DNA of 64,000 nucleotides, taken from Formosa sediminum. GTDB taxonomy: Bacteria; Bacteroidota; Bacteroidia; Flavobacteriales; Flavobacteriaceae. The position numbers and the translations under genes were made by a program. Below the pieces are notes generated by a model that saw only the letters and a program-made list of their open reading frames with translations, ran no database searches and was not told the DNA's origin. The stretch spans positions 124,001 through 188,000 of the forward strand of contig NZ_CP041637.1 of the NCBI RefSeq assembly GCF_007197735.1, written 5' to 3'. Shown here piece by piece: positions 26,205-46,059 of the stretch (positions are counted from its first letter, which is position 1; each line of letters begins with the position of its first letter).

Positions 26205-26208
26205 TATA

Positions 26209-30057: not shown

Positions 30058-30146
30058 TCGCGTTAAGGATTGAAACGGCATCCTTTTTAATGTTTTACAA
30101 CATTAAAAAGATATAGTGTAAAGCCTGACCCGTAGGGAAACGCCAA
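30058..30146 (+). ncRNA. Conserved structured RNA, resembles Flavo-1
   Basis: No open frame is present here, but the sequence folds well. GCGTT at 30060-30064 pairs with AACGC at 30139-30143 to close the element. Inside is a perfect 12-bp hairpin (CTTTTTAATGTT with AACATTAAAAAG, 4-base loop) and a small CCC/GGG hairpin at 30129-30137. The blocks GGATTGAAACGGCATCC and GCCTGACCCGTAGGGAAACG are ones I recall as strongly conserved between genes in many flavobacteria, and I associate them with the Flavo-1 RNA motif. The class name comes from memory; the structure is read from the sequence. It lies about 80 bp upstream of ssrA. Confidence 0.55.
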
Positions 30147-30224: not shown

Positions 30225-30617
30225 GGGGTCGACTGGTTTTGACAGCGAGATTTATTGAACGGTAAGCACGTCGTGTAATGATTTTGAAACACGTAAAAGG
30301 CTAGATCACACTTTTAAACGGCGAGAATAACTACGCTTTAGCTGCTTAATCCGAATCATAGTAGGATTGGCCAAGGCACACAAGGTGTGCAAGCTTTATG
30401 TCTCCGGAAAGCCTTGATTGACGGCGTTCCTTTTTGAGGCATCGTAAATGTCAATATAGAAAGTAAGGCGCTTTGACTTGCTTTTGAAACTAAAAAAGAT
30501 AAGTTAAAAGTAGGTTGTCTTTAACCAGCTTTTAATCGAAAAACCAAGAAAAGAATAAGCGTGTAGAAAGCCCTTTGGTAACTTGTTTGGACGAGAGTTC
30601 GATTCTCTCCGACTCCA
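30225..30617 (+). ncRNA. ssrA: tmRNA (transfer-messenger RNA)
   Basis: The 5' end GGGGTCGACTGG and the 3' end CGACTCC pair to form the acceptor stem, and the T arm reads GAGAGTTCGATTCTC. The internal reading frame at 30320-30349 encodes the proteolysis tag GENNYALAA followed by TAA, the normal tag of flavobacteria. tmRNA with SmpB rescues stalled ribosomes and marks the unfinished protein for degradation. After the discriminator A the genome reads CTA rather than CCA, so the CCA end must be added post-transcriptionally. The last bases of the gene are repeated at 44608-44623. Confidence 0.95.
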
Positions 30618-30623
30618 CTAAAA
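30608..30623 (+). other. Putative attL: 3' end of ssrA
   Basis: This 16-bp segment TCCGACTCCACTAAAA at the ssrA 3' end recurs at 44608 with one mismatch. ssrA 3' ends are classic targets of tyrosine recombinases, and insertion there regenerates an intact gene, as seen here. It is the left boundary of the proposed island. Confidence 0.55.
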
Positions 30624-30640
30624 GTCCTTTTAGAGGCAGT

Positions 30641-30673
30641 AACCCCCAAAATTCATGGAATTTCGGGGGTTTT
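30641..30673 (+). terminator. Intrinsic terminator of ssrA
   Basis: AACCCCC at 30641-30647 pairs with GGGGGTT near 30665-30671. The stem is extended through one mismatch by an AAATTC/GAATTT-type arm and is followed by TTTTC. It is the present terminator of tmRNA transcription. Confidence 0.75.
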
Positions 30674-31335
30674 CATTACTTATCACTTCATTTAATGCTA
30701 ATTAAATGCATTTAAAACGGTACTAAAATGAATAATCGAATCCTATTTGGGAAACGCTATTCTCAATATTTGAACCGTAATAAAGTCTCCTTATTGGAGC
30801 AACAAAAAGGTAAATACGATAGAAAGGTAAAATTAAGAGATTGTGTTCAAGACTTGTTTAAATAAACTCTTTTTCCGAAATGTAACCTTCTCGTGAAATG
30901 AAGGAGAAAATAACTAACCAGATTCTAAAAATGAGTTTTATAATTTAAGTAGGACGCCTAATGAAAGTAACGTTAATGTTGTAAGCTGATATGAAATTTT
31001 ATTACTTCCCTTTTTCTCGATAATTAACAAAATATAGAAATCACCTCCAGAAGCTTTAACGTTGTGTTTAAAACTTTATAACGATACATTTTTTTCTGAA
31101 ATGAAACTTTTCTTAGAATGATGTGGCAATTAACTGAAGTTTAATTTAAGTAATAGTATATGATTGAAATTAACACTTATTTCTAATCCATTGTAATCCT
31201 TAAATTAAAAATCAAAATTATTACGTTATATGTGTGTTTTAAGTTCTTGGAGTCTCTCCTTTTAATTAGTTACCAATTTATGTTTAGATATATAGATTTC
31301 TAAATAGAGGGAGACTAAAATATGTTATAATGCTA
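30674..31335. other. Non-coding, apparently decayed left flank of the island
   Basis: There is no convincing gene. A 45-codon frame runs from ATG 30728 to TAA 30865 and encodes a Lys/Arg-rich peptide (MNNRILFGKRYSQYL...) that I do not recognise. Two imperfect copies of a roughly 50-bp stretch are visible: TTTTTCCGAAATG near 30871 and TTTTTCTGAAATG near 31089, each leading into a TAATTTAAGTA box. This looks like the remains of a duplicated or lost gene, possibly the recombination module, but no integrase motif survives. Confidence 0.35.
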
Positions 31336-32205
31336 TTAGTTTCTTAACTTACTAGGCACGTAACCAAAGTGTTTTTTAAATGCCACTGTAAAATGTTGAG
31401 GGTTTTTATAACCAACCTCATATGACACCTCAGAAATAGTTCTATTTTTCTGTCTAAGCATAAACTTAGCTTTTTCCATACGAAGACGAGTAAAGTACGA
31501 AAAAACTGGTTCATTATGTACTTTCTTAAAGTTACGATTTAATTTATGACGATTAGTACCAACTAAGGCTGATAGTTCATCAACTGTAATTGCTCTTTTT
31601 ATATTTTCTAGTAATATTTTTTCTGCTTGAATTACTTTATTCAATTCTACTTTTGAAAGAATACAAGCAAATTTTTCTCCGTCAGTATTCATTTTAGCAA
31701 ATAAATATCTAAAAGTATCCTTCAAAAGACACTCTAAATAGAGCTTATTAATATTTTTATTTTTTGTACAAGTAATAATCTCACTCACTTTATTCTCAAG
31801 AAAAAAATCAAATTCAGGACTCTTATTCCACATTTTAAAAGCTATATTTTCTTTTATAGATTCTCCAAATACACCAGCTATTTTATAAAAATCACTTTTA
31901 AATAATCTTTTAAAATAGGCATAATCGCATTCTATATCTATAGAGGTTATTTGTGTTGATGTTATTTGTAATCTCCCTTCTACTTCGGGTAAATAAAAAA
32001 AATTATACTGTCCCCCTTCTATAGTAATAGGAATACCATTTCCTGATTTAGGTTCGTAATGGGTTTTTCCACTAATAACAAAATGTAACTTTATAAAAGG
32101 AAAGTTATGTTTTATTTCATATTCTATAGGAGGAATTACTTTTAAATCTTTAATAAAAATTCTTACATCTTCAAAAAAAACAGATGTATTCACAGCTATG
32201 CTCAT
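31336..32205 (-). CDS. AraC-family regulator (PchR-like)
   Basis: This 289-residue protein has an N-terminal sensing domain (about 1-185) and a C-terminal double helix-turn-helix (about 190-289). The DNA-binding part shows ITVDELSALVGTNRHKLNRNFKKV and ISEVSYEVGYKNPQHFTVAFKKHFGYVPS. The N-terminus resembles PchR-type regulators that sense siderophores. The gene is divergent from the TonB receptor at 32378 across 172 bp, the usual place for a local activator. It probably turns on the island's iron-uptake operon when the cognate siderophore is present. Confidence 0.8.
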   Translation of the reverse strand: MSIAVNTSVFFEDVRIFIKDLKVIPPIEYEIKHNFPFIKLHFVISGKTHYEPKSGNGIPITIEGGQYNFFYLPEVEGRLQITSTQITSIDIECDYAYFKRLFKSDFYKIAGVFGESIKENIAFKMWNKSPEFDFFLENKVSEIITCTKNKNINKLYLECLLKDTFRYLFAKMNTDGEKFACILSKVELNKVIQAEKILLENIKRAITVDELSALVGTNRHKLNRNFKKVHNEPVFSYFTRLRMEKAKFMLRQKNRTISEVSYEVGYKNPQHFTVAFKKHFGYVPSKLRN

Positions 32206-32299
32206 GTTAATATTTTTCTCTATATAAAATTAATTTATCCAGATAGGTATCCTACAAAATGTTGCTCATTTACGTAAGTAAAAATGTGAATCACGTTAC

Positions 32300-32328
32300 T
32301 TGTCTTCCAAATGAAGATAATACTTTTG
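32300..32328 (+). promoter_or_regulatory. Promoter of the island siderophore operon
   Basis: TACTTTTG (TAnnTTTG) at 32321-32328 is preceded by TTG at 32300-32302 with an 18-bp spacer, one base shorter than usual. This slightly suboptimal spacing would fit a promoter that needs the divergent AraC protein. The transcript would start near 32335, about 40 bases before the receptor ATG. Confidence 0.5.
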
Positions 32329-32377
32329 CTCTCAAATTTAGCATTTATTAAGATTAAATAAAAATAATAAATAAAAA

Positions 32378-34810
32378 ATGAACATAAAAATAACAAGTGA
32401 TTATCTTGTTGTAATCATGCTACTATTTATAAGTTCTTTAGAGGCACAAGTTAAAGTTTCTGGAAGAGTAAGTGATGTAGAAAACAAGCCAATATTTGGA
32501 GCAACTGTTGTTATTAAAGACACCTCTATAGGCACACTAACGAATAATTTAGGTGAATTTGAAATACAGAAAGTTCCACTAGGAGAATTAGTATTGCAAG
32601 TACGTTATTTAGGATTTGAACCTAAAGAAGTTTCTTTTTCAACAAAAGAAAATAATGATTTAAAAATAGATATAAAGCTTCTCGCTAAAAGTGAAAACCT
32701 AGATGAAGTTATTGTAAAAGGACTAACAGAAAATCAACTATTAAAAGATAAAGCTGTGAAAATTGAAGTCATCGAAACCCAGAAATATAAAATGGAGTCG
32801 GCTTCAGTTATAAATTTAGTAAATCGCTCGTCAGGCATTAAAATCCGTCAATCTGGAGGACTAGGGTCTAGTACAAAAATCAATCTAAATGGTTTTCAAG
32901 GTGATGCTGTACGTGTGTTCAAGGATGGTATTCCTATGGATTACCTCGACGGGATTTACGGAGTTGGTTTTGTACCAGCCAATACACTTGAACGTGTAGA
33001 AGTTTATAAAGGTGTATTGCCCGCAGATTTAGGTTCTGATGCCTTAGGTGGTGCTGTAAATATGATATCTGCTTCCAATAAATTGGGAAATAAAATAAGT
33101 ACCTCGTATGAAATAGCTTCTTTTAATACGCACAGAGCTTCTGTAAACCTTAACCTTACCAATAAAAAGAACAACTTATTTGGAGGAATAGAGGCGTTCA
33201 TCAATTATTCTGACAATAACTACAAAGCAAATGTAAATTATATAGATCCAGATACAAGAAACGAAATTCCAATTGAAATTGATCTATTTCATAATACATT
33301 TCGCCAACATTATATAGAAGTTTTTGCAGGTATTAAAAACAGAAAATGGGTAGACGAGCTTAAACTAACTGTAACGAATTTCGAGTTATACAGAGAAAAC
33401 CAGTTCGGACAATTAATGCAGTACCCAATAGGAGCTGCTTACAACAAACAAATAGGGGATTTTGTACCTACACTTCGTTACAAAAAAAAGCTATTGAAAA
33501 AAAAGTTAATAGTAGATCAATTTTTTACCTATAGTGAAACTAGACGCATCTCTGTAGATACTCTTAACGGAAGCTATGACTGGTTAGGAAATTTCACCGT
33601 CAATAATGAAGACCAAGAACCAGGAGAAGCAGGAGATGCAGATTTAACAACTTTAAATCGTAAAAACACAGTGTCTCGCACAACACTTAAGTATATTTTA
33701 AATAATCACAATACCTTAACGCTTAATGCTGTATACACAACTTATAGACAAACAGGAAGTAACCCTTATGGCGAATATACGGAGGGTGAAAACCCAGTAC
33801 AGTTAGTCAGTCTTCCTGCAGATTATGATAAGTTTGTATCTGGACTTTCATTAGATAGTAAATTTATTAATAATCGGTTACAAAACAGCCTGCAGTTTAA
33901 ATACTACAACTCACATTCAAGTGGTAAATCGGTAGATGAGATTACTGGACTCTTAAATCCTGAAGAAGTTGAAGCTCGCATATCAAATTTTGGTCTAGGT
34001 AACTCGATTCGGTACCACATTAATGATAAATTAAATACTAGATTCTCTATAGAACAAGCTACTCGCCTACCTACACAAGCAGAAATTTTTGGAGATGGTA
34101 GCACTAGTATTGCAAATTTTGGTCTTAAACCAGAACAAAGTCTTAATGCCAACTTGGGGTTAGATTATGCAAATAACAGTAATTTCTCTGTAGGCGTAAA
34201 CGTTTTTTACAGATATAGTAAAGATATGATTTCAAGCAAAATAAGCGTAACAACCATAAGCTCTGTGTCTGAAAATCTAGACAAAGTTAAAGGCTATGGT
34301 CTTGAATTAAATTCAGGTTACACCTTTTTAAAGCACTATAATATAACAGGAAATCTAACCTATCAGAGCTTTAGGCAAGACGGACATCAAGAAGGAGAGA
34401 CAGATTTGCTTGACGATTCTAGAATACCCAATATACCTTATTTTTTCAGTAACCTAAGTGCTTCTGCCAACTTTGAAGACATTTTACGTTCAAAAGATAA
34501 ACTAAAAGCCTATTGGTATTACTCCTACATACACCCTTACTTTTTAAATAAAATACCAAAAAATTTAGAAGCTGATGGCTTTTTAGGATTGTTTGGAGAA
34601 CCAGGGCTTAAGGATACAGAATTATACATACCAAAACAAAATATGCATACTATAGGTTTAGTATGGTTACCTAATAAAGAAAAACAATTTTCAATTGGCT
34701 GTGAAGTAAAAAACCTTTTTGACCAGATTGTTTTCGATAATTTTAAAATACAGAATGCAGGACGTAGCTTTCATGTAAAGCTAACCTATGCATTTGATTT
34801 AAACCCTTAA
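32378..34810 (+). CDS. TonB-dependent receptor (XusA-like)
   Basis: This is an 810-residue outer-membrane receptor: signal peptide (about 1-23, ending LEAQ), carboxypeptidase-like domain (about 25-108, VSGRVSDVENKPIFGATV), plug (about 125-230, KINLNGFQGDAVRVFKDG and LERVEVYKGVLPADLGSDALGGAVN), and a barrel to the C-terminus. The plug differs from that of the receptor at 22369 and is closer to ferric-citrate/xenosiderophore receptors, so it is not a recent copy. It is the first gene of the island operon and is followed after 29 bp by a DUF4374 lipoprotein gene. In Bacteroides the equivalent pair XusA/XusB imports siderophores made by other bacteria. Confidence 0.85.
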   Translation: MNIKITSDYLVVIMLLFISSLEAQVKVSGRVSDVENKPIFGATVVIKDTSIGTLTNNLGEFEIQKVPLGELVLQVRYLGFEPKEVSFSTKENNDLKIDIKLLAKSENLDEVIVKGLTENQLLKDKAVKIEVIETQKYKMESASVINLVNRSSGIKIRQSGGLGSSTKINLNGFQGDAVRVFKDGIPMDYLDGIYGVGFVPANTLERVEVYKGVLPADLGSDALGGAVNMISASNKLGNKISTSYEIASFNTHRASVNLNLTNKKNNLFGGIEAFINYSDNNYKANVNYIDPDTRNEIPIEIDLFHNTFRQHYIEVFAGIKNRKWVDELKLTVTNFELYRENQFGQLMQYPIGAAYNKQIGDFVPTLRYKKKLLKKKLIVDQFFTYSETRRISVDTLNGSYDWLGNFTVNNEDQEPGEAGDADLTTLNRKNTVSRTTLKYILNNHNTLTLNAVYTTYRQTGSNPYGEYTEGENPVQLVSLPADYDKFVSGLSLDSKFINNRLQNSLQFKYYNSHSSGKSVDEITGLLNPEEVEARISNFGLGNSIRYHINDKLNTRFSIEQATRLPTQAEIFGDGSTSIANFGLKPEQSLNANLGLDYANNSNFSVGVNVFYRYSKDMISSKISVTTISSVSENLDKVKGYGLELNSGYTFLKHYNITGNLTYQSFRQDGHQEGETDLLDDSRIPNIPYFFSNLSASANFEDILRSKDKLKAYWYYSYIHPYFLNKIPKNLEADGFLGLFGEPGLKDTELYIPKQNMHTIGLVWLPNKEKQFSIGCEVKNLFDQIVFDNFKIQNAGRSFHVKLTYAFDLNP

Positions 34811-34839
34811 TTTTTTTAATAAGTAATACTAAATTTTAA

Positions 34840-36129
34840 ATGATGAAAAAAATGAATTTTTCAAAAGTAGGTCTTTTATTTCTGACCATATTAGGATTCT
34901 CCTGTTCTAGTGACGATTCAACAGATGATGATCCAGCTGTAGAAGTTGATAGCCGTTATATAGTAATGTCTGCTGAACAAACTATAGGAGGAGATGTAGC
35001 ATATTTATCCGTCTATAATTCCTTACCAACAAGTGCAATTGAAAACGCTACAGATGGAACCACTCAAGTTAATTCTTATGGTCGTATTAATACTTATGAA
35101 AATAAATGGGCATTCAAAAAGAAAAAATTTACTGGCGAAACAGGTCTAGTTCGTTATAGCATGAACACCGAAGGTGCTTTAGATCTAGATGGTTTTATTA
35201 GTACATCTACTACTGTAAACTATGCTATTTTAGACGACACCCACGGCTACTATTACGATTCTGGTGATGGAGAAAGAACCATTAGCACATTTAACCCTAC
35301 AACTATGGCACGTACTGGAGATTTTACTATCTCTGATGAAATTTTTGGTGACGAATTGAATAATTATGAAATAGCAGTTGGTTCAAAAACTATGATAATA
35401 TCAAAAGACAAACTATTTGTAAACGTTGAATATTCTGTTATCGATGTAGATGGAGTAACTCCTGAAGGAGTATATGTACCTAAATTTACCATGTTAGTTA
35501 TCAACACCGATACTAATGATGTTGAAAAGAAAATAACTCATACAGGAGCTATTTTTGATCAAGGACACGGCACAGCTACAGAATTTTCTGCGTATGTAGT
35601 TGCTAAAGATGGAGATATTTACATGTCTACTCATGCTCTTTTTGCAAGCCGATATGCTATAGATCCTATTTACGGAACTCCACGTGCCTGTGTATTTAAA
35701 ATAGAATACGATGATTTAGATTTTGACCAAGATTGGGTACTTAAAGGAGCAGATATTCAAGGAGGAGCAGATGGAGATAACTATGTGGTTTGGTCTATGG
35801 CCTTGGACGATGAAGATACACTATACGTAAACTGCTCAAAAGAAATTGTTCTTGACGACTTTTCTAATCTTCTTTCGAATATATACTATCCTTATATCAT
35901 AGATAAAGAAACTATGGCTGCAACAGCTATTGATGCTCCAGCTACTAATTTCGGGCATAGCGACGGAAATTTATGTACTGTGAATGGTAAGGTATATTAT
36001 CAATTAAAAGATGCAGACAGTGCTAAAGGAGGTTATTACTCACTTAATTCTGATGGTACGGCTGCTGAAGAAGTATTTAGTGTAACCGACACTTACCCAA
36101 GAGCATTGGGATACTTGGAAATTCAATAG
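34840..36129 (+). CDS. DUF4374 surface lipoprotein (XusB-like siderophore-binding protein)
   Basis: This 429-residue protein has a lipobox ending at Cys22 (LGFSC), followed by SSDDSTDDD, an acidic run of the kind that directs Bacteroidota lipoproteins to the cell surface. The rest is beta-rich with repeating strand patterns that fit a beta-propeller, including YYYDSGDGERTISTFNP and VVWSMALDDEDTLYVNC. The family DUF4374 includes XusB of Bacteroides thetaiotaomicron, which captures ferric siderophores and hands them to the TonB receptor XusA. The gene directly follows the receptor gene, which supports the same role. The first iron locus in this window has no counterpart. Confidence 0.75.
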   Translation: MMKKMNFSKVGLLFLTILGFSCSSDDSTDDDPAVEVDSRYIVMSAEQTIGGDVAYLSVYNSLPTSAIENATDGTTQVNSYGRINTYENKWAFKKKKFTGETGLVRYSMNTEGALDLDGFISTSTTVNYAILDDTHGYYYDSGDGERTISTFNPTTMARTGDFTISDEIFGDELNNYEIAVGSKTMIISKDKLFVNVEYSVIDVDGVTPEGVYVPKFTMLVINTDTNDVEKKITHTGAIFDQGHGTATEFSAYVVAKDGDIYMSTHALFASRYAIDPIYGTPRACVFKIEYDDLDFDQDWVLKGADIQGGADGDNYVVWSMALDDEDTLYVNCSKEIVLDDFSNLLSNIYYPYIIDKETMAATAIDAPATNFGHSDGNLCTVNGKVYYQLKDADSAKGGYYSLNSDGTAAEEVFSVTDTYPRALGYLEIQ

Positions 36130-36146
36130 AATAGAATTAAAACAAG

Positions 36147-36173
36147 CCTTATGATCCAATTTGGATCATAAGG
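36147..36173 (+). promoter_or_regulatory. Perfect 11-bp hairpin between the DUF4374 and DUF4198 genes
   Basis: CCTTATGATCC and GGATCATAAGG pair perfectly around a 5-base loop (AATTT). No T tract follows, so it is more likely an mRNA-stabilising or processing hairpin than a terminator. It could set a higher transcript level for the receptor and lipoprotein than for the downstream genes. Confidence 0.5.
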
Positions 36174-36188
36174 TCTAAAGCATAAAAA

Positions 36189-36916
36189 ATGAAAAAAACA
36201 CAAAATATAGTATACTCGCTATTCTTAATGCTAATAAGTCAAGTATTAATGGCTCATGGATATTGGGTAGAAACTAAAGCAGATGGAAAATTAAATGAAG
36301 CTCAAGAAGTAAAAATTTATTTCTCAGAACCTAATGATACTCCAGAACCTACCAATGGAAAAGAATGGGGTTTGGTTAAAGACTTCACACTTTATGTGGT
36401 TAGTCCGTCTGTAAAAAAACAGCATTAATTACAACAGCTAAGTCAGATCATTATGCAGCAAGTTTTACACCTAGCGAAATGGGTGGATATTTTGTAATTC
36501 TTGAAAGCACTAATCTAGGGGTTATGGAACCAGGTAAAAAATATGCATTCATTCCTGTATTTTATGCCACTACATTAGTTAAAGTTGGGGAAGTAAACCC
36601 TAAAAAAAAGCTTCTAAACATACTAGATTATGTGCCTATGGGTGTTTATGCGAATATAACGAAAGGTCGTAGCGGTGAATCTTTAAGTTATATTTTTAAA
36701 AACAAATCAGATGTAGACTTTATGGCCACGGTTATAACCCCAAATGGTCAAAGCCTACAGCTAAAAGGAAATCCAGAATCATTTAACTTATCTAAGTTCG
36801 AAAAAGGCACATACACTACACAAATGATGATTACAGAAAAAGTAAAAGGAACTAAAGATGGAAAAGTGTATAACACGATATACCATATAGCAACTAGCCG
36901 TTTTAATGTAGACTAA
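36189..36916 (+). pseudogene. DUF4198 protein gene split by a frameshift at an A7 run
   Basis: The first frame (36189-36428) gives a signal peptide and a mature start HGYWVETKADG, matching HYLWIETKAEG of the paralogue at 24778, then stops after VSPSVKKQH. Reading one base back in the A7 run at 36413-36419 continues as KKTALITTAKSDHYAASFTP, which aligns with KKTQLKVTAKTDRYVASFTP of the paralogue and stays open to 36916. The joined protein would have about 242 residues, the right length. This is a true disruption, a sequencing error in the homopolymer, or a programmed -1 frameshift on the slippery A-AAA-AAA. An internal ATG at 36479 could start only the C-terminal part. Confidence 0.7.
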
Positions 36917-36930
36917 ATCCTTTTATATCA

Positions 36931-37266
36931 ATGTATAGCCTATTAATATTTTTAAATTTTGCATCGGTTTGGTGTCTTTATGTAACCTCAAATCGAGTGG
37001 ACTTTGAGAAAACTGGTATCTATGCAAAACTTAATAAAAATAGAACGGCGTCCCGTGTAATTGCCATTCTATTTTATTTATTTTCCTGTGTTCTGTTAAT
37101 CTTAGATCAAGGTCCAACAACTGGAATTCTTTTAAGCGTAATGCTCTGGACTTTAATAGCTAGTCTTATTACACTTTTTGCGCCTTTTCCTAAATTCAAA
37201 ACGCTTCATCTCTGTTTATTAACAGTAGTGCTAATAGGTTTTGAAATCTGTTTATCTATTTACTAA
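36931..37266 (+). CDS. Small membrane protein (DUF3325-like), island copy
   Basis: This 111-residue protein has four hydrophobic helices, from LLIFLNFASVWCLYVTS to a C-terminal LLTVVLIGFEICLSI. Position, length and helix layout match the protein at 25556, although sequence identity is modest. It starts 14 bp after the DUF4198 stop and ends 4 bp before the next ATG. It is probably an inner-membrane partner of the PepSY protein. Confidence 0.55.
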   Translation: MYSLLIFLNFASVWCLYVTSNRVDFEKTGIYAKLNKNRTASRVIAILFYLFSCVLLILDQGPTTGILLSVMLWTLIASLITLFAPFPKFKTLHLCLLTVVLIGFEICLSIY

Positions 37267-37270
37267 AATT

Positions 37271-37555
37271 ATGCCTGCAAATAAAAAATATCTCATGCAA
37301 TCTGGTTGGGCACAAGCCAGTAAAATTATTGCTTCTGTTTTAGGAAGTCTTATTGCTTCCTTTGGATTTCATTTAGCTTTATCTTCTTACTTTTGGCAAA
37401 CCCAAATTGTAGCAACTTCCCTGTTTAGTATATATATGCTATGGGCAGGATTAGTCATTGTGGTATATTGGGTAAAAAAACCATGGATGGCTTGGGCTAT
37501 ACTTCTTCCTATTATTATTCTTTCTGCTATAGCAATATATATAAGACTTAATTAA
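37271..37555 (+). CDS. Small membrane protein (DUF3649-like), island copy
   Basis: This 94-residue protein starts at MPANKKYLMQSGW. The frame is open 10 codons further upstream, but the paralogue at 25905 begins with the same MPANKKYL and the first 23 nucleotides are identical, so the ATG at 37271 is chosen. Three hydrophobic helices include LGSLIASFGFHLALSS, which matches GGYLVTMSFHLALTA of the paralogue. It lies 2 bp before the PepSY gene. Confidence 0.58.
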   Translation: MPANKKYLMQSGWAQASKIIASVLGSLIASFGFHLALSSYFWQTQIVATSLFSIYMLWAGLVIVVYWVKKPWMAWAILLPIIILSAIAIYIRLN

Positions 37556-37557
37556 TT

Positions 37558-39408
37558 ATGGCAAAAGATAAAAGAAATTACAATGTATTCCTTAATGTAC
37601 ATACGGTTAGCGGAATTATAATCACAATAGGTCTTTTTATATGCTTTTTTGCAGGAGGAATAGCTCTTTTTTATAAAAATATTAATAACTGGGAAAAAAA
37701 CTTAGTTCAGAAAACTGTTGGACATAACGCATACAACATTGATTACGAAAAAGCGCTTGAAACCGTAAAGAAATCTGGTTATACTATGCAGGATCGTAAT
37801 TTTGATTTTGCAATCAAGACCATTGAAAAAAAGGATTACCTAAGTGTAAGTTCACGCGTAGGAAGTCCTCGTGGTAGACGCCCTGAAGCAGGTAAATCTA
37901 AAAACAAGAAAAACGAAGTAAAAAACGTAACCAAAAAAAATGATAAATCACTTAACAGTCTACAAAATACTTCGAAACAAAAATTAAAAGAATCCGATAA
38001 AAATAACAGTCAAAATTTAGAACTAAAAAAGAAAAAAGCAGAAGAGAGCTTTAACCCAAAAGGTAATATTGCAATGATCTTAGATCTTAATACCTACCAA
38101 CCTCTTAAAGATATTAAAAACGAAAATGGTGAACGTCGTAAACATGGAAAACCTCAAGAATTAGGTACATTTATTTACCATTTGCATTATTTTGACCAAC
38201 TTCCTACTGTTGGGGTATATATATCTGGGGTTCTATCGTTATTCTTTTTAGTCGCCTTGATAACAGGAGTAATTGTTCACTGGAAAAAGCTAATAGAAAA
38301 CTTCTTTACTTTTAGATTAAAAAACTCTATTAAACTACTTTGGACAGATGCACATACAGCTTTAGGAGTTATAGGACTGCCTTTTCAATTTATATTTGCT
38401 GTTACTGGTTCCTTTTTTGGTCTTGCTTCACTTTTTATAATTTTAAACACCTTAGTCATATACGAAGGAGATCAACAGAAACTTATTGCCGCTGTTGCTC
38501 CTGCTTTTATTAATGTCGAAAAAGCTGGTGAACCCTTAAAAAGTAAAGAGAGCCTTAATTTATTAGCTTTAAAAGCTAATGATGAACTTCACCTAAACAA
38601 CCATTATACGCTAACTGCTAAAATCCTAAATTACAACGACAAAAACGGTCGTTTTATATTGAATTACCGTGACAATGTTGGGAAAAATTTTTATGGGAAC
38701 GCCTATATTATGTATAATCTAAGTAATGGATCTATAGTGAGTAAAAAGGTAATTGATTCCCAAGGTTGGGATTTTGCAACCTCATTAGAAACTATGAGAA
38801 AACTTCACTTCGGCACCTACGGTGGGTATTTTTTAAGATTAGTATATTTTTTACTCTCCTTACTTACCTGTTTTGTAATTCTTTCAGGAGTTATGATATG
38901 GTTAGAAGTACGAAACAATAAAAAGTATGCAAAAAAATTAAAATTTAACCGTAATGTAGGGGCTATATTTATAGGTAACTGTATGGGGCTTTTTCCTGCT
39001 ATTGCTTATTTCTTTTGTTTAGCAAAGATTATACCTCAATCTCCAGATCGTTTTGGAATTATGGAGCAGAGTTTCTATATGTTCTGGTTTGGTTTTACTT
39101 TATATTCCTACTGGGTAAAAGACCTGCATACTATTAACAAACATGCACTATTTATGGCTGGGGTTTTAGGAATATCTGTCCCTATCTGTAACGGAATATC
39201 GACAGCTAATTGGTTTTGGCTTTCCTTAAATCGAGGTCTAATTGACTCCTTTTTTGTAGACCTCGCTTGGCTTATTACAGGTATAATAAGTCTTAGTATT
39301 TCATTGTTTGCAAAACGCTTGGTATCCAAAAGAAAAAAAAAGGCACCACAAACACGTAAACCTATTACACAACCTCAAGAAGAAATAACATTAATAATCA
39401 ATAATTAA
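37558..39408 (+). CDS. PepSY-domain inner-membrane protein (XusC-like), island copy
   Basis: This 616-residue protein has the same helix layout as the protein at 26209: N-terminal NVHTVSGIIITIGLF helix, VYISGVLSLFFLVALITGVIVHWKK, then LWTDAHTALGVIGLPFQFIFAVTG, a periplasmic PepSY part and C-terminal helices. It is about 100 residues longer because of a Lys/Asn/Ser/Glu-rich low-complexity insert at about residues 100-165 in the first periplasmic loop. In the Xus system the inner-membrane PepSY protein XusC completes iron retrieval after XusA/XusB import. Its C-terminal tail (KKKAPQTRKPITQPQEE) is also unusual. Confidence 0.8.
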   Translation: MAKDKRNYNVFLNVHTVSGIIITIGLFICFFAGGIALFYKNINNWEKNLVQKTVGHNAYNIDYEKALETVKKSGYTMQDRNFDFAIKTIEKKDYLSVSSRVGSPRGRRPEAGKSKNKKNEVKNVTKKNDKSLNSLQNTSKQKLKESDKNNSQNLELKKKKAEESFNPKGNIAMILDLNTYQPLKDIKNENGERRKHGKPQELGTFIYHLHYFDQLPTVGVYISGVLSLFFLVALITGVIVHWKKLIENFFTFRLKNSIKLLWTDAHTALGVIGLPFQFIFAVTGSFFGLASLFIILNTLVIYEGDQQKLIAAVAPAFINVEKAGEPLKSKESLNLLALKANDELHLNNHYTLTAKILNYNDKNGRFILNYRDNVGKNFYGNAYIMYNLSNGSIVSKKVIDSQGWDFATSLETMRKLHFGTYGGYFLRLVYFLLSLLTCFVILSGVMIWLEVRNNKKYAKKLKFNRNVGAIFIGNCMGLFPAIAYFFCLAKIIPQSPDRFGIMEQSFYMFWFGFTLYSYWVKDLHTINKHALFMAGVLGISVPICNGISTANWFWLSLNRGLIDSFFVDLAWLITGIISLSISLFAKRLVSKRKKKAPQTRKPITQPQEEITLIINN

Positions 39409-39411
39409 ATT

Positions 39412-39933
39412 ATGACATTACAACAAAAAATAGTGGCCGCATGGCTTTTCCTTACAATGGCTCTTTGCGCTCATATGATTCTAGAAAACTTAGAGGCCAT
39501 TCATTTTGGTTCTCATACACCTTCAAAAGAACACAATAAAGAAGTGTCTGCTAAAACAGATATAAACAAAACGAATAAGGAAAGCCACAATAAAAAAGAA
39601 ATTAAAGATTCTAAATTAACGCAGAGAAACAACCCAAATATTACTAAAGAAGATTCTGGTAATAATATGAAAATGGTTTTAAGAATAAAAAATCTATTCG
39701 TATTAGTACTGCCTCTTATTTTTGGATTTGTAAGTCTTTTTTACTCAAAAAAATGGTTTAAATGGATCACGTTTATTTACTCCATTCTTTTTGTTTTGCT
39801 AAATTTTGCTCATGTTGGAGAACAGATTTCTATGGGTTCAGAAAATTTTACTCAGGTAATTCTCTTATTATTTGTAGCCGGTATAAATATTTTGTTAATC
39901 GTATTCCTTAATAGATGGCGAAAAGTAGCTTAA
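39412..39933 (+). CDS. Four-helix membrane protein with a charged loop
   Basis: This 173-residue protein has a first helix (about 6-22), then a polar loop of roughly 65 residues rich in Lys, Asn, His and Ser (KEHNKEVSAKTDINKTN...), then three helices (about 92-108, 115-133, 145-163). No family is recognised. It starts 3 bp after the PepSY gene and is the last gene of the tight cluster. The loop has the same composition as the insert of the preceding PepSY protein, so the two may meet in the periplasm. There is no counterpart in the first iron locus. Confidence 0.6.
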   Translation: MTLQQKIVAAWLFLTMALCAHMILENLEAIHFGSHTPSKEHNKEVSAKTDINKTNKESHNKKEIKDSKLTQRNNPNITKEDSGNNMKMVLRIKNLFVLVLPLIFGFVSLFYSKKWFKWITFIYSILFVLLNFAHVGEQISMGSENFTQVILLLFVAGINILLIVFLNRWRKVA

Positions 39934-39969
39934 TCATATAAGTTTTAATAATTAGAATTTCATAAATTT

Positions 39970-39999
39970 TATAGCATATTTTTTATAAAAGATGCTATA
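39970..39999 (+). promoter_or_regulatory. Inverted repeat in the acylase leader
   Basis: TATAGCAT at 39970-39977 pairs perfectly with ATGCTATA at 39992-39999, 14 bp before the acylase ATG. There is no clear T tract. It could be an operator or a hairpin that affects translation of the acylase. Confidence 0.35.
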
Positions 40000-40013
40000 A
40001 CAAAAAGAATAAA

Positions 40014-42362
40014 ATGATAAATAATAATAATTTAAGAATAATATATAGGACAATATTTTTCGGATTATTGACATTAACAATCGGATGTTCTAAAGAAGAG
40101 AAGTTAAGTCAGGTAGAAATTAAGTGGACAAAAAATGAAGTTCCTCATATTAAAGCAAATAATTATAAAAATCTTGGCTATGGATATGGCTATGTACATG
40201 CCAAAGATCGCATTTGTGAAATATCGGGTCAGGCTATTACATTAAGAGGTGAGCGTTCTTTACGTTATGGAGCAGATGCCATTGCTACCATCGGTTTTTT
40301 AAAAACTACAAATCTTAATTCAGATTTATTATTCAAGATTCGTATTCCAGAAGAATGGGTGCAAGAAGAATTTGAAAAACTTAATAAAGAAACCAAAGAC
40401 TATATAAAAGGTTATGTTGATGGTATTAATTATTATGTTTCCACTTTAACTGAAGAAGAACGCAATGAGCTTTGTGAAGAAGGTCCTGTTATTACTTTTA
40501 AAACAAGTGATGTAATTAGATCTGCTATGCGTTTTGGCGTTCAAAAAGAATTGATAGATATTGGTCCACATATAATATCTTCTTCTCAAGCATGGCAGAA
40601 AAAAACTACAAATTATGCATTAAATTCTCCTCACACTAAAGCGGTAGAAATTGAAGGAGGATTTGGAAGTAATGGTTGGGTGTATGGAAGTGATGTTACA
40701 AAAACAAAAAGCTCTATTATGTTGTCTAACCCGCATTCAGCCTGGAAACGAACAGTACATCAACAACGCATATACATGCACCAATACCATTTAACTATAC
40801 CTGGAGAGCTAGATGTTGCTGGGGCATCATTTTTAGGAATCCCTTTTCCTATGACAGGTTACAATGCAGATGTTGCATGGACTATTTTAGATGCAGCAAC
40901 AGTTACACCTTATGTTTTACAATCTATGGAAGTAGAAGAATCTGCTGTAGCACCTAAATACCTTATGGATGGACAACAAAAACCTCTTAAAATAAAATCT
41001 GTACCTGTTAGAGTACTTGAAAAAGATAAAAAAATAAAAACACATGTTTTTAAGTTTGTTGAATCAGAATTAGGGATACTTTATAAATTACCAGAAAAAA
41101 AAGGAAAACCTGCTGGTTGGTATGCCATTACTAATCCTGGAGAAAAAAATGCAAAGGGCTTAGATCAATTCCTTGCAATTGCGCATTCTAAATCTACACG
41201 AGATTTTATAAGTGCTGTAGAAAATAATAGAGGTATTTTATCTCAATTACTCGTTGCCGACAAATTTGGTGAAGTAGGATATGTTATAGCAGGACAAATT
41301 CCTCCAATAACAGATGATGAAATGGAGAAATATCATATAAACAATTCTACAGCAGCATTTAATGTTATAAACGGTACTACTAGTGATGCTTCTTTTAGAG
41401 ATTCTAATAACAGACCTTTATTGGCTCCTGCTTCTTTTTATCCTAATATTATTTCGAAAGGAATTATTCATAACACCAATAATAGCTATAAATATACAGA
41501 GTATGGAAATCCTCAAAAAGATTATCCATCTGTATTTGGACAACATAAGCCTGATAAAGCTATTGGTAAAAAAAAGGCTGCAGGTTTAAGGTATGACCCA
41601 AGGCTAATTATGTCTGCTCAACGAATGAATGAAATAACTAAAGACAGTATTGTAACCCCCAAAGAAGCTCTAGAAGTTCTTTTTGATAATAGAAATTACG
41701 CTGCCGAAACTTTTTTAGATCGTATTCTAGAATTAAACAACGAATCTATATCTGAAGACGCTAAAAATGGCTTTAGAGTACTTAGCACATGGGATAGAAA
41801 AAATAACTCGAAAAGTAAAGGAGCTTTACTATTTCATCAGTTTTGGAAAAAAATTATTAAAATGGGAGTGCTCTTATCAAGTAAAAATGATGACCCAGAA
41901 ATAGGTTCTCAAATAAATATTACACCCCAGAATTCTCCAGCTATTATAAATGCTTTAGAAGAAGCTGTACATGAATTGGCTAATTTTGGTTTTCAGCCAG
42001 ATGATCCATGGGGAGAAGCGCTATATACAACTGTAAATGAAACTCGTATTCCATTACATGGTGGTTCTTATCAAGAAGGCTTACTTAACGGAGAGATGCC
42101 TGCGCCACTTACTAGCAAAGGTTTTCCTTATATTTTATTTGGTACAGCATACGTACAGTTAATAGATTGGAATGATGGAAATTTAAACGCGAATGTTCTT
42201 TTAAGTCATGGGCAAAGTAATAGTATAGATTATAAAGGACATTTAGATCAGTTAAAAATGTTTTCTAACAAAAAGCTTTATAAAGTGCCATTTACTCAAA
42301 AAGACCTTAATACAACCAAAGTTATTGATTCACTAATACTCACTGTTGATCATGTAAAATAG
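40014..42362 (+). CDS. Penicillin-acylase-family (Ntn hydrolase) lipoprotein
   Basis: This 782-residue protein has a lipobox ending at Cys25 (TLTIGC). It shows the penicillin G acylase/acyl-homoserine lactone acylase pattern: YGYGYVHAKDRICEI near the N-terminus and the autoprocessing site GFGSNGWVYG, where Ser219 would become the N-terminal nucleophile of the beta chain. Later blocks SNPHSAWKRT and LGIPFPMTGYNADVAWT are typical of the beta chain. These enzymes hydrolyse amide-linked acyl chains. Its place behind a siderophore-uptake operon recalls PvdQ, which removes the acyl chain from pyoverdine precursors. The substrate is unknown, and an antibiotic or quorum-signal amide is also possible. 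Confidence 0.82.
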   Translation: MINNNNLRIIYRTIFFGLLTLTIGCSKEEKLSQVEIKWTKNEVPHIKANNYKNLGYGYGYVHAKDRICEISGQAITLRGERSLRYGADAIATIGFLKTTNLNSDLLFKIRIPEEWVQEEFEKLNKETKDYIKGYVDGINYYVSTLTEEERNELCEEGPVITFKTSDVIRSAMRFGVQKELIDIGPHIISSSQAWQKKTTNYALNSPHTKAVEIEGGFGSNGWVYGSDVTKTKSSIMLSNPHSAWKRTVHQQRIYMHQYHLTIPGELDVAGASFLGIPFPMTGYNADVAWTILDAATVTPYVLQSMEVEESAVAPKYLMDGQQKPLKIKSVPVRVLEKDKKIKTHVFKFVESELGILYKLPEKKGKPAGWYAITNPGEKNAKGLDQFLAIAHSKSTRDFISAVENNRGILSQLLVADKFGEVGYVIAGQIPPITDDEMEKYHINNSTAAFNVINGTTSDASFRDSNNRPLLAPASFYPNIISKGIIHNTNNSYKYTEYGNPQKDYPSVFGQHKPDKAIGKKKAAGLRYDPRLIMSAQRMNEITKDSIVTPKEALEVLFDNRNYAAETFLDRILELNNESISEDAKNGFRVLSTWDRKNNSKSKGALLFHQFWKKIIKMGVLLSSKNDDPEIGSQINITPQNSPAIINALEEAVHELANFGFQPDDPWGEALYTTVNETRIPLHGGSYQEGLLNGEMPAPLTSKGFPYILFGTAYVQLIDWNDGNLNANVLLSHGQSNSIDYKGHLDQLKMFSNKKLYKVPFTQKDLNTTKVIDSLILTVDHVK

Positions 42363-42905
42363 AAATGTAGACTTACTCCTTTTATAGGACATCTTAAGTT
42401 TGATAGATAATTATTGGTTAATCATTTGTCAAATTCACTTTTTATCAGAACTATTTAAAGATAGAAAACATTTTAACTTTAAACAGTAATTATAGAATAA
42501 GTAAATTTTCATCAAAGCAGATCTCGAAGATTTTAGGAAAATTGGAGATCTGCAAACCTGTTTCAGACTAGAAAGTTATGAAGGAATCTAAATAGGTAAC
42601 GGCAAAGTCCCGTAAAGCACCTGACAACGTTTATGAACTAAATTAGAGTAGTTCTATTCGTCTTAAGCCAACCTAATACAGGTTTGAAACTCTCTCCTGT
42701 AGCTTACAACCTAATAATGATGCTAGAGAAATTACATTTTTTTGTATTAAAACACCTTTATAGGGTAATTTAGACCCACTCAAGACCTTTAGAATACTTG
42801 ACGTTAGTATTTTAAAATAGAAAATGCCGTTAAGGATAATTTTTATTATAGTGCTACTATTTATTTTGGGCTTGTTCAAAGATTAACATTTCCAACAAAT
42901 CGTTT
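42363..42905. other. Non-coding stretch between convergent island genes
   Basis: There is no credible gene. A minus-strand frame at 42673-42879 (68 codons) has no recognisable features. The stretch holds a perfect 9-bp inverted repeat, GCAGATCTC at 42517-42525 with GAGATCTGC at 42545-42553, whose loop contains a second ATTTT/AAAAT pair. A further inverted pair is CAAACCTGT at 42553-42561 and ACAGGTTTG at 42676-42684. The first hairpin may end transcription of the acylase gene, although no T tract follows. Confidence 0.4.
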
Positions 42906-44117
42906 CTATTCTTCTCCAACAAGAGAAGCTCCTATAGGGCGAATATATTTTGGGGGATTAGCTTTAATTTTGAATTGTTGATCTACATATTTTAGCACAT
43001 TTTCTTCATCTTCCATATTAGTACCGTCTATATCTGTTGTTGTTGAAAAAGTAACTGCTCCACCTGCATCTGTAATGTTTTTAACAAACCTATACGCTTG
43101 TTCTTTTTTAAACATTAAATCAGTTCTATTATTAGACCAAGTCGATCTAATAGGTAAAAACAAATGTTTTAAAGTTAGTTTAGAGCCATCATATGAGGTT
43201 GTTGGAGATGCTTTTATATCTGTGACTGTAAATTCTTCATAGGCCCACGAATTAGGTGGCGCACCTTGTGCCAAAGGAGTAATATGCCCGGCTGTCATAT
43301 CAGACCAAGGGTCTGTAGCCGTAAGCTTTATAATCTTATAATTTGCTTTATTGGTATCATTGGCTCCATCACTATCAACTTTTAAAAAATTCCCATTACT
43401 ATCCTTAAAATAATCTTTAGCATAGTTAGTCGATATTATAACATCTGGATCCACATTACGAATCATTTGCACAAATTCAGCTCTTTGAGTATCATTACCA
43501 GGATAACTAGAAAAAGCATCTATCCAATAGCCATCTACACCTAATTTTTCAAAACGTTTAATATATCCTTCGCATAAATTCATCCACGCTTGATGCTCGT
43601 CATTAGAGAAGTAACGGGCCACATAATCATTCCATGCTTGAGCTCCTGCAGTTGAGGCTCTACTCGCAGGACTCATTCCATTTATGTATAAAATTACTTT
43701 TTTATTAGCTTTTTTAAATTTTCCAATTACATTTATAATGACTTGTTCATTTGCTAAACTAGGTACAAATTCCTCATTTATAATGGAGCCTGAAATTCCC
43801 ATTACAGCATCAACATTTTCATTTGTCCTTAAAGTCCATAAATGTGCTTTTGCGTTATTAGTGGCGTTTGTCATTACATGTCCAATTGTAGGGTAATTAT
43901 TTATAATTTCTTGAGCACCTGCCACATAGTCGTAACCTTTACCACCATCAGAACTGTTCTTAACATAATGATTTAAAGTTTCACCACCTCTTACATACAA
44001 ACGGACACCCCAAGACCCTTGAAGAGATATTGGAATAGTTTTTTTTTGAATATTGCTCCAAATTGAACAGGATATTAAGAATATAATCACAATTAAAAGA
44101 CTGCAATTCTTTTTCAT
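42906..44117 (-). CDS. Lipoprotein with a predicted glycoside-hydrolase-like TIM barrel
   Basis: This 403-residue protein has a lipobox ending at Cys17 (FLISC). The middle part reads like a TIM barrel of glycoside hydrolases: DAVMGISGS, KKVILYINGMSPA, KLGVDGYWIDAFSSYPG with Asp200 on a strand end, and DPDVIISTNYAKDYF. The pattern of a buried Asp in YWID, followed by a surface loop, recalls GH29-type fucosidases and related barrels, but I cannot assign a family. It is on the minus strand at the right end of the proposed island and has no operon partner there. Confidence 0.5.
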   Translation of the reverse strand: MKKNCSLLIVIIFLISCSIWSNIQKKTIPISLQGSWGVRLYVRGGETLNHYVKNSSDGGKGYDYVAGAQEIINNYPTIGHVMTNATNNAKAHLWTLRTNENVDAVMGISGSIINEEFVPSLANEQVIINVIGKFKKANKKVILYINGMSPASRASTAGAQAWNDYVARYFSNDEHQAWMNLCEGYIKRFEKLGVDGYWIDAFSSYPGNDTQRAEFVQMIRNVDPDVIISTNYAKDYFKDSNGNFLKVDSDGANDTNKANYKIIKLTATDPWSDMTAGHITPLAQGAPPNSWAYEEFTVTDIKASPTTSYDGSKLTLKHLFLPIRSTWSNNRTDLMFKKEQAYRFVKNITDAGGAVTFSTTTDIDGTNMEDEENVLKYVDQQFKIKANPPKYIRPIGASLVGEE

Positions 44118-44607
44118 TTATTGTTTTTTGTTTGTTAACAGTATATCTCCTAATGTAATTTTATATTTCCACTAAAATATAGTTTTGTATTAGTTTTTTA
44201 CTAAGTTTTTATATTTTGAATTTCGTCCCAAACTACATCTAATCCTATCAGGATTATTTTATGTGAAAAAGGATTTGTAAGTTTTAAAAGCAGATATCTT
44301 GGTTTTTCTAATAATATTTCAAATACGTGTTAAATTACAAACATACTCCCGCACGGGCATTAACCCTTTGCATCGTTTTCTTAGTCATAACATAATTGCC
44401 GTTTTTATAATCCGCAAAATGAAAACAAGAAACCTTAATGTTCTATCCAAGATCTATTGATGCATTACTTTTCTAGGAATAAAACTTTTAATACAACTCT
44501 TCAGGAATGGATAAAAATATACTTATTAAAGTATATATTTATTAAGAACTGACAGTTTACCAATTGTTTAGTATCTAAACACTCTATTTAAAACTGCTAA
44601 TCTCCTT
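44118..44607. other. Non-coding right flank of the island
   Basis: This AT-rich stretch has no full gene. On the minus strand, 44335-44442 is open for 35 codons and ends in YKNGNYVMTKKTMQRVNARAG, a short Lys/Arg-rich peptide that could be the tail of a lost gene or chance. No integrase or transposase motif was recognised. Confidence 0.35.
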
Positions 44608-44623
44608 TCCAACTCCACTAAAA
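44608..44623 (+). other. Putative attR: copy of the ssrA 3' end
   Basis: TCCAACTCCACTAAAA matches 15 of the 16 bases at 30608-30623 in the same orientation and lies immediately before a strong terminator. This is the arrangement expected for the displaced original ssrA 3' end after integration. Confidence 0.5.
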
Positions 44624-44656
44624 AGCCCCGTAAGCCTAGTGTTTACGGGGCTTTTT
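44620..44656. terminator. Strong bidirectional intrinsic terminator
   Basis: AAAAAGCCCCGTAA at 44620-44633 pairs with TTACGGGGCTTTTT at 44643-44656 around a 9-base loop, with T tracts on both strands. On the minus strand it ends the sugar-transporter transcript. On the plus strand it would have been the original ssrA terminator if the 14-kb insertion model is right. Confidence 0.85.
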
Positions 44657-44679
44657 TCATCTTTTGTATTGAAACACTA

Positions 44680-46059
44680 TTACTTTTTCCAAAACCCTTC
44701 AATTTCTTCAAGAGATTTTCCTTTTGTTTCGGGTATGAATTTATAGGTCACAAATACAATTATTAGAATAAAACCTATAAATATATAATAGGGTAAAGAT
44801 CCATTCCAAGGTTCACTTGTATTGGTTTCGCTTCCCATTACTACTGGAAATGACTGAGATACCACATAATTTGCAGCCCATTGTGCTGCCACAGCTACAG
44901 ACATGGCCACACTTCTAATTTTATTCGGAAACATCTCTGCCAATAAAACCCAGACCACTGGACCCATAGACAGTGCAAAAGACGCTATAAATACCAAGAC
45001 TCCTATTAGCGATATTACACCAACATTTTGCTGTTGCAGGGTAATGCTTAACAGTAAAAAACCAACAACCATACCTACTGAACCGATATAAAGTAGTGGT
45101 TTTCTTCCAAATTTATCTACAGTAAACATTGCTACAAAAGTAAACACTAAATTAACAAAGGCTAATAGTATTTGCTGTAACAACACATCTTCTTTTCCGA
45201 ATCCAAGTGCTTTTTCAAAAATATCCGCACCGTAATACAATACAGCATTAATTCCTGTAAATTGCTGTAAAACAGAAAGGATTGTACCTATTGCAATGAT
45301 ACTTAAAATCGCTTTAGAAAAGTAATTTACATTTACTCCATCATTAGCTTCATTTAAAGAGGTCTTAATATCTTTCATTTCTTTTAAAGCAACCTCATCT
45401 CCATTTATTTGTTGCAATACTGCTAGTGCATCTTTATCTCTACCTTTTAAAGCTAACCATCTCGGACTTTTAGGCACAATAAATAATAACACTAAAAACA
45501 GTATACTCGGAATTAACTCTGACCAAAACATGCGGCGCCATCCAAACTCTATATTCTGGGCTAAACTTAAATTATTACCAATAAAATAGGTTGCTAAAAA
45601 CACCACAAAAAAACCAATTACAATTGCCAATTGGTAATATGTAACCATACGCCCCCGAATATTTGAAGGTGCAATTTCTGCTATATACATTGGTGCATTC
45701 ATAGACGCTACTCCAATACCTAAACCTCCTATAATTCTAAAAACAACCAACATACTTACAGTTTGTGGAAATAGCTCTGGCAAACCTGAACCATAGGCTG
45801 AAAGTGTAAAAAATACAGCCGATATAATTAAAGATTTTTTCCGGCCAATCTTAACACTTAAAGGTCCGGCTATAATTGCTCCTACAAAACAACCTAATAG
45901 CGCACTTCCTACAACCCAACCTTTTAAAGCATCGCTTAATTGAAAATATTCTGTTAAATAAAATTGGGCGCCATTAATAACTCCTGTATCATAACCAAAC
46001 AACAAGCCTCCTAAAGCGGAAACTGCTGCGATTAATAATAAAAAAAGACTTTTTTTCAT
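44680..46059 (-). CDS. Sugar/H+ symporter of the MFS sugar-porter family
   Basis: This 459-residue protein has twelve predicted helices. The sugar-porter signatures are present: GGLLFGYDTGVINGA at the N-terminus, KIGRKKSL between helices 2 and 3, ISPSN-like IAPSNIRGRM, the substrate-binding QQFTGINAVLYYG (about 265-277) and PETKGKSLEEIE at the C-terminus. This group (XylE, GalP, AraE) carries monosaccharides into the cytoplasm with protons. It is the last gene of the glycan-utilisation locus, 75 bp after the GH43 gene, and would import the released sugar, probably glucose. Confidence 0.88.
   Translation of the reverse strand: MKKSLFLLLIAAVSALGGLLFGYDTGVINGAQFYLTEYFQLSDALKGWVVGSALLGCFVGAIIAGPLSVKIGRKKSLIISAVFFTLSAYGSGLPELFPQTVSMLVVFRIIGGLGIGVASMNAPMYIAEIAPSNIRGRMVTYYQLAIVIGFFVVFLATYFIGNNLSLAQNIEFGWRRMFWSELIPSILFLVLLFIVPKSPRWLALKGRDKDALAVLQQINGDEVALKEMKDIKTSLNEANDGVNVNYFSKAILSIIAIGTILSVLQQFTGINAVLYYGADIFEKALGFGKEDVLLQQILLAFVNLVFTFVAMFTVDKFGRKPLLYIGSVGMVVGFLLLSITLQQQNVGVISLIGVLVFIASFALSMGPVVWVLLAEMFPNKIRSVAMSVAVAAQWAANYVVSQSFPVVMGSETNTSEPWNGSLPYYIFIGFILIIVFVTYKFIPETKGKSLEEIEGFWKK

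Follow-up and report, generated by a model that had tools for sequence, protein, structure and literature searches.

Downstream of ssrA, the transfer-messenger RNA (tmRNA) gene, Formosa sediminum carries a 14-kb block of DNA that lies between two copies of the ssrA tail and holds an iron-uptake operon and a fucoidanase-like gene. We analysed this block as a candidate genomic island in a stretch of 64,000 nucleotides (the window), which corresponds to G000:C1:124001-188000 of a single-contig genome of 3.93 Mb. The ssrA gene, the repeats and the terminators that delimit the block are the following:

30225..30618, + strand: ssrA (tmRNA), putative integration target at its 3' end (ARAGORN 30225-30618; Rfam RF00023 30225-30620)
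30605..30623, + strand: left attachment repeat attL, CTCTCCGACTCCACTAAAA (repeat comparison)
30641..30671, + strand: terminator-like hairpin presently 3' of ssrA, probably element-derived (folding; covariance model R1, 23.5 bits, expect value (E) 0.13, weak)
44605..44623, + strand: right attachment repeat attR, CTTTCCAACTCCACTAAAA (repeat comparison)
44620..44656, + strand: putative displaced ssrA terminator, 14 kb from ssrA (-24 kcal/mol, z -8.5; match at L112)

Direct repeats and terminators at the ssrA 3' end

An earlier note on this DNA had described a 16-bp repeat with one mismatch and the same orientation at both ends of the block, and sequence comparison confirmed it: TCCGACTCCACTAAAA at 30608-30623 and TCCAACTCCACTAAAA at 44608-44623 lie on the same strand and differ at one position. 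Extended leftwards, the repeat is identical at 17 of 19 positions (30605-30623 versus 44605-44623). Since ssrA ends at 30618 according to ARAGORN and at 30620 according to Rfam, the repeat covers the tmRNA 3' end and a few bases beyond it. Based on a Markov-1 estimate, 0.0007 same-strand matches with at most one mismatch are expected in 64 kb. The putative core of the attachment (att) site at ssrA is GACTCCAC. A looser core, CTYTCCRACTCCAC, occurs eight times in six genomes (G000, that of the window, and five congeners, G001-G005): at five ssrA ends, at the right ends of the G000 and G003 inserts, and once more in G003, whereas the reversed control of this pattern gave no matches in these genomes. 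The additional G003 copy (G003:619892) lies within a reading frame and was taken for chance. Copies of the ssrA 3' end flank the block as direct repeats on both sides, as they do in genomic islands at this gene.

The strong terminator that had been noted at the right copy is present, with the folding energy listed above. In L112, a locus of another Formosa, ssrA is directly followed by AAGCCCCGTAAACCTAGTGTTTACGGGGCTTTTT; these 34 bases recur, with one difference, at window positions 44623-44656, where they directly abut the right repeat. In 2.41 Mb of retrieved sequence, a total that includes overlaps, the exact core of the terminator was found at two places, behind ssrA in L112 and in the window (44625), L003 and L192 being the same place as the window in this search. 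We read the 44620-44656 hairpin as the probable native ssrA terminator, shifted by 14 kb. The covariance model of the left end, R1, built on nine integrase-positive loci with the window left out, matched G004 behind ssrA (E 2.3e-6), the right terminator of the window (E 0.005) and, in G002, the empty site (E 0.08). The G004 match (L071 5773-5838) shows the left-end signature of integrase-bearing elements with no integrase close by, and is possibly another relic.

Empty and occupied ssrA sites in relatives

Whole-genome comparison covered the five congeners. In G002, which we took to be Formosa algae KMM 3553, ssrA (C4:108448-108843) is located 84 bp from the orthologue of the symporter gene of our right flank; the two genes are convergent, and orthologous DNA extends outward on both sides. 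Homology between G002 and the window ends at 30623 and restarts at 44686. The terminator sequence behind ssrA is different in G002, and the genes at that place are different in L112. The empty site, a feature of genomic islands at ssrA, is represented by the flanks in G002 and by the terminator in L112. The relatives do not all share one gene order from ssrA to the symporter, the outcome that had been named beforehand as contrary to an insertion.

Other congeners carry elements at the same site. G003 has an 83-kb insert with an integrase gene (296231-297466) and genes for RteC, TraG, TraM, TraN, MobC (the coupling protein) and ssb; at its far end stands an exact copy of the 16-bp ssrA tail, followed by a terminator and then by the same symporter gene. 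Several transposase-like frames were seen in it by eye, one of which was confirmed. Additionally, the start of one frame, which spans two loci, resembles the G000 MobB relaxase, a protein that scores over the MobB cut-off. In G001, 260 bp separate ssrA from an integrase gene, behind which come MobC-like and MobB genes and, by eye, an ssb-like gene. The insertion of a relic island at the ssrA 3' end, as the earlier note had proposed, is thus supported by the sites of G002, L112, G003 and G001.

For a wider view, ssrA loci were surveyed via a conserved neighbour gene; among the best 80 of 210 loci, 74 contain ssrA. At seven of these 74, ssrA is followed after 240-263 bp by an integrase with 52-79% identity to the G001 and G003 enzymes. 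A downstream repeat of the ssrA tail (18 nt, at most three mismatches) occurs within about 9 kb or less at five of the 74 (L115, L139, L151, L169 and L180; raw count), and in L139 and L151 the tail copy matches the host's own ssrA variant. Together, these loci suggest that integration at ssrA has recurred within the Flavobacteriaceae.

Some of the surveyed loci deserve separate mention. In L139 and L151, islands of about 7.1 kb lie past ssrA between ssrA-tail repeats, and each contains one gene whose product has an integrase SAM-like domain that exceeds the Pfam cut-off, together with a catalytic domain that falls short of it. In L151, the apparent end of a second element directly follows the first, so elements may stack. 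L115, L169 and L180, from three genomes, have inserts of about 140 bp just past ssrA, flanked by the ssrA tail, which are scars or very small elements; their right ends have TAATCTCTCC ahead of the core, and the window attR is similar, with GCTAATCTC.

The neighbourhood of the site also has features of its own. The symporter gene (window 44678-46075) has a second copy at G000:C1:3776947-3778326, 98.6% identical across the gene only, which points to a recent duplication or gene conversion. To the left of ssrA, an FRG-domain gene (window 27765-28724) is absent from the otherwise colinear G002 locus and is perhaps another local insertion, and a Flavo-1 RNA is located at window 30052-30134, just upstream of ssrA.

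Cargo genes and predicted function

Between the repeats, the following genes were identified:

31336..32205, - strand: AraC-family regulator (family match; 71% identical in G148)
32378..34810, + strand: TonB-dependent receptor, XusA-like (9gbc, E 4e-82; best NCBIfam match MxcH, 423 bits versus a cut-off of 925)
34840..36129, + strand: lipoprotein-like, XusB-like predicted beta-propeller of 429 amino acids (homologues, profile, predicted fold)
36189..36916, + strand: DUF4198-like gene, frameshifted (intact homologue in G148)
36931..37266, + strand: small protein, weakly DUF3325-like (E 0.014, below cut-off; G148 colinearity)
37241..37555, + strand: small operon protein (G148 colinearity)
37558..39408, + strand: PepSY_TM protein, resembling XusC in family and position (family match)
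39412..39933, + strand: small operon protein, membrane-like by eye (G148 colinearity)
40014..42362, + strand: penicillin-amidase/PvdQ-like N-terminal nucleophile (Ntn) hydrolase (lipobox-like N-terminus by eye; Ser219 at the PvdQ beta-chain start)
42906..44117, - strand: fucoidanase-like glycoside hydrolase (6m8n, P5AFcnA, E 3.5e-93)

The operon (31336-42362) has a colinear counterpart in G148, a genome of another genus of the same family, with 74.6% DNA identity over 11 kb, and the island proteins are 59-77% identical to their G148 counterparts. In G148, the operon is located at 2.90 Mb, beside ATP-synthase genes (by eye, from protein starts), and ssrA at 1.40 Mb. The earlier note had seen a complete iron-uptake operon with its own AraC regulator. 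The operon stands, based on its families, and its completeness does not, the DUF4198-like gene being frameshifted; the frameshift sits in an A-run of a gene that is intact in G148 and is either real or an assembly error. The content given for the block was likewise incomplete, as it also holds the fucoidanase-like gene and what is probably a transposase relic.

A tandem duplication of the native operon to the left of ssrA (22369-27756) could also have given rise to the island operon, and the two do share sequence similarity and a layout in which a receptor gene is accompanied by DUF4198, a pair of small proteins and PepSY. Nevertheless, the island proteins are 27-37% identical to those of the left operon as against 59-77% to those of G148, and the native operon is without the XusB-like lipoprotein and amidase genes; we give this origin almost no credence.

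The distribution of the cargo is patchy, as in other genomic islands at ssrA. In tallies that include the window's own genome, a close relative of the amidase (E <= 1e-60) was found in two of 397 family genomes, G000 and G148, and weaker relatives (E 1e-3) in 15 of 59; the five congeners had none at E 1e-3. The receptor was found in three of 298 family genomes at E 1e-150, one of them only 36% identical, and the fucoidanase-like gene in five of 298 at E 1e-30, with 78% identity to the G007 gene. These counts bear on whether the block is instead ancestral in the genus and was precisely deleted in G002 and others by recombination of the repeats. The repeats would permit such a deletion, and the whole-genome comparison comprises five congeners only. 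Nevertheless, the amidase is unmatched in all five and has its close relative in so few genomes of the family, G003 and G001 carry other elements at the same site, and L112 retains the terminator behind ssrA; an ancestral block is therefore very improbable.

Regarding function, the best solved relative of the receptor is XusA (9gbc). The 9GBC entry is the XusA-XusB complex, according to PMC13142918. The 429-residue lipoprotein has no direct Pfam match, and its assignment was approached through homologues, a profile and a predicted fold. A window-like receptor adjoins the lipoprotein homologue at three of three loci, and at L202, which was found via the receptor, the lipoprotein adjoins as well. 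When compared with DUF4374, the XusB family, one of four lipoprotein homologues scored over the cut-off, two below it, and one had no match. A profile of six lipoprotein sequences gave, at E <= 1, XusB/DUF4374 chains only (9hqe at 8.8e-6 and four at 0.018-0.066). The top six fold matches of the AlphaFold model were chains of two Bacteroides fragilis XusB entries, the first with E 1e-14 and template-modelling (TM) scores of 0.62/0.69; these were followed by B12-binding lipoproteins, and B. viscericola XusB ranked 30. This model was made from six sequences, an input of two having given a predicted local distance difference test (pLDDT) score of 36. Homologues, profile and fold together indicate an XusB-type lipoprotein next to the receptor and, with the PepSY inner-membrane protein encoded in the same operon, the XusABC set is complete.

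The operon therefore looks like an Xus-type xenosiderophore uptake system, for which binding and import of a ferric siderophore are predicted from sequence. It shares with the Xus system of Bacteroides (PMC13142918) an XusA-like receptor, an XusB-like lipoprotein and a PepSY protein in one operon. It differs in its additional DUF4198-like and small proteins, PvdQ-like amidase and AraC regulator, in its location inside an integration-site island, and in the remote likeness of its lipoprotein to XusB (15% in the fold alignment). In such a system, the lipoprotein would capture a foreign ferric siderophore and hand it over to the TonB receptor, the PepSY protein would reduce the iron, the amidase would cut the siderophore at an acyl or amide bond, and the AraC protein would regulate the operon.

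The designation of the block as a siderophore island holds for uptake, based on the annotated genes, and not for synthesis. Among the matches of the island proteins, no siderophore-synthesis family was found but the PvdQ-like amidase, and for this reason we named the block an uptake island. PvdQ acts in pyoverdine maturation. The island amidase resembles the PvdQ/penicillin amidase family in its full-length Pfam match and in serine 219, which stands where the PvdQ beta chain starts; it differs in scoring 280.8 bits against the cut-off of 950 of NCBIfam NF051460, so we do not call it PvdQ. A Parabacteroides Xus operon has an esterase that might cleave siderophores (PMC13142918), and by analogy we infer that the amidase may cleave the imported siderophore. 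Alternatively, it could degrade N-acyl-homoserine lactones or other amides outside siderophore handling, its solved relatives including PvdQ, which is named an acyl-homoserine lactone acylase. The amidase gene, however, closes an operon of siderophore type whose colinear order is preserved in two genera, and the Parabacteroides esterase also speaks for a role on siderophores; we find the alternative possible although rather doubtful.

For the gene at 42906-44117, homology to the solved P5AFcnA, which we take to be a member of glycoside hydrolase family 107 (GH107), points to a GH107-type fucoidanase.

Remnants, origin of the island and significance

In addition to the cargo, three non-coding or decayed stretches were localized in the island:

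30704..31137, no strand: decayed non-coding relic (in other elements, long homologues lie 340-510 bp from ssb genes)
42566..42890, - strand: probable decayed remnant of a DDE-transposase gene, 3' end (match at the DNA level only)
44417..44489, no strand: short match, 73 bp, to relic-type non-coding DNA of L075 (E 2.6e-6)

Decayed non-coding flanks had been described before; the decay stands, and the left part is now identifiable as DNA like that near ssb of other elements. The relic at 30704-31137 has 13 further non-coding matches, in four congeners and its own genome, and across 35 genomes searched matches were found in five, all of the same genus (G005 had none). The five longest are 281-410 bp and 66-72% identical. 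Four of them lie 340-510 bp from ssb (G000:3507066, G001:2588576, G003:332717 and G004:3841541); the fifth, G003:3507308, is not near ssb, and its region has an integrase match. Four contexts were read among the eight shorter matches, with no ssb close by. The G+C content of the relic is 0.29 in the window versus 0.40-0.41 in three measured copies, as expected of unselected decay. The homologues at L075, L101, L066 and L103 are non-coding and lie close to ssb in four elements; they contain internal repeats of about 75 bp, which are also dispersed in the genus. DNA of this type is perhaps a transfer or replication origin.

The stretch 42566-42890 matches, at 66-70% DNA identity, a G003 gene identified as a DDE transposase. 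A tblastn search of the island with the G003 transposase gave no match, so the assignment as a transposase relic is at the DNA level alone. As suggested by the earlier note, the flanks were searched for recombinase remnants by translated comparison; none were found, which fits its statement that no integrase is left. With frames of G003, G001, G004, G005 and G000 compared by tblastn with 30620-32300, 36100-36500, 42350-42920 and 44100-44625, no integrase was among the best 15 matches per stretch, and the G003 and G001 integrases gave one match across the whole island (14 residues, E 0.50). A single strong match in the left flank was rejected, as it was to a reading frame that is open by chance within the non-coding relic. 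The six integrase-family matches of G000 all lie outside the island. The island therefore shows neither the integrase gene nor the integrase remnant expected of a genomic island at ssrA, although elements at the same site in relatives have one, and it does not belong to the integrative and conjugative elements, being without integrase, relaxase and transfer genes and having the non-coding relic only.

Taking borders, sites and cargo together, we consider it highly probable that the 14-kb block is a relic integrative element at ssrA that has retained useful cargo. A tyrosine-integrase element would have inserted at the ssrA 3' end by site-specific recombination, leaving the tmRNA tail whole, probably supplying its own terminator, and shifting rightward both the terminator that ssrA had originally and the symporter gene. 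The element would later have lost the integrase gene along with those for transfer and undergone decay, so that an 11-kb Xus-like operon, the fucoidanase-like gene, the non-coding relic and a probable transposase relic would be what is left between attL and attR. The repeats, the empty and occupied sites, the distribution of the cargo, the gene families and one fold are observed, while the enzyme behind the insertion, the sequence of losses, the substrate and each biochemical step are inferred.

Several observations weigh against parts of this account. With up to three mismatches and both strands allowed, the repeat has two matches, one of them itself, against a shuffle mean of 0.52, and two or more were obtained in 14 of 100 shuffles, so the weight of the repeat rests on its closeness and position; attR and attL also differ at two of 19 positions. 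A looser hairpin directly follows ssrA in L131 and also forms the left end of the G001 element (L069), so the hairpin type is not unique, and R1, which mostly recognises terminators, is weak on the left end of the window (E 0.13). In G001, no second exact core was found across the genome, nor was the right border of its element found. Relatives in which ssrA is followed by both the terminator and the symporter had been anticipated; the symporter follows in G002 (one of five congeners) and the terminator in L112, and no relative examined has the two jointly. The G+C content, 0.317 in the island and 0.319 elsewhere, gives no distinction, and no integrase or transfer-gene remnant was found within the island. 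Nine relic matches are short or not near ssb, which makes the relic partly a dispersed motif of the genus, and its tie to mobile elements consequently rests on the long matches. Finally, the XusB-like model is of middling confidence (pLDDT 65.9, predicted TM score 0.74).

It is also conceivable, although on balance unlikely, that the operon entered a pre-existing ssrA element separately, by homologous recombination or with a transposon, and was not its original cargo. The operon alone is common to G148, where it lies away from ssrA, the probable transposase relic is located between the operon and the fucoidanase-like gene, and the latter is distributed differently; nevertheless, no independent boundary is visible at the left end of the operon. 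Separate entry is a version of the relic-element explanation and not its opposite.

Genomic islands and integrative elements at ssrA 3' ends are of a familiar kind, and tRNA and tmRNA integration sites were reportedly surveyed in 2002. The Formosa island resembles them in its target, direct repeats, intact tmRNA end and empty site in a relative, and differs in being without an integrase and in its host, a member of the Bacteroidota. With the Bacteroides-type conjugative elements (RteC, TraG/M/N, MobC), represented by G003, it shares the site and the genus, and its left flank resembles their ssb-side DNA; unlike them, it has no conjugation, relaxase or integrase gene. Riemerella anatipestifer is a relative within the Flavobacteriia. 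Its 10K genomic island is likewise an integrase-type island with att repeats, but it lies at an Arg-tRNA gene and has kept its integrase, according to PMC6764341. In titles and abstracts of the literature searched, we found no described ssrA-site case in Bacteroidota, no ssrA island in Formosa or Flavobacteriaceae, and no Xus operon in an integrative element. The kind of island is thus known, while the Xus-like operon with a PvdQ-like amidase and the recurrence at ssrA in Flavobacteriaceae are particulars absent from those titles and abstracts.

More broadly, and only tentatively, the ssrA 3' end might be a standing, family-wide site in marine Flavobacteriaceae that is repeatedly filled, stacked and emptied, through which a self-contained capture-cleave-reduce cassette for iron piracy, whose amidase would be specialised for acylated siderophores of foreign origin, might have moved between genera. 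Within one genus, one site is seen in three states: empty, filled by a full conjugative element, and holding a stripped relic with its cargo. In this marine flavobacterium, the island joins putative siderophore-piracy genes with one gene for a seaweed-polysaccharide enzyme, and Xus-type iron piracy, known from Bacteroides of the gut, may be spread by islands among marine bacteria too.

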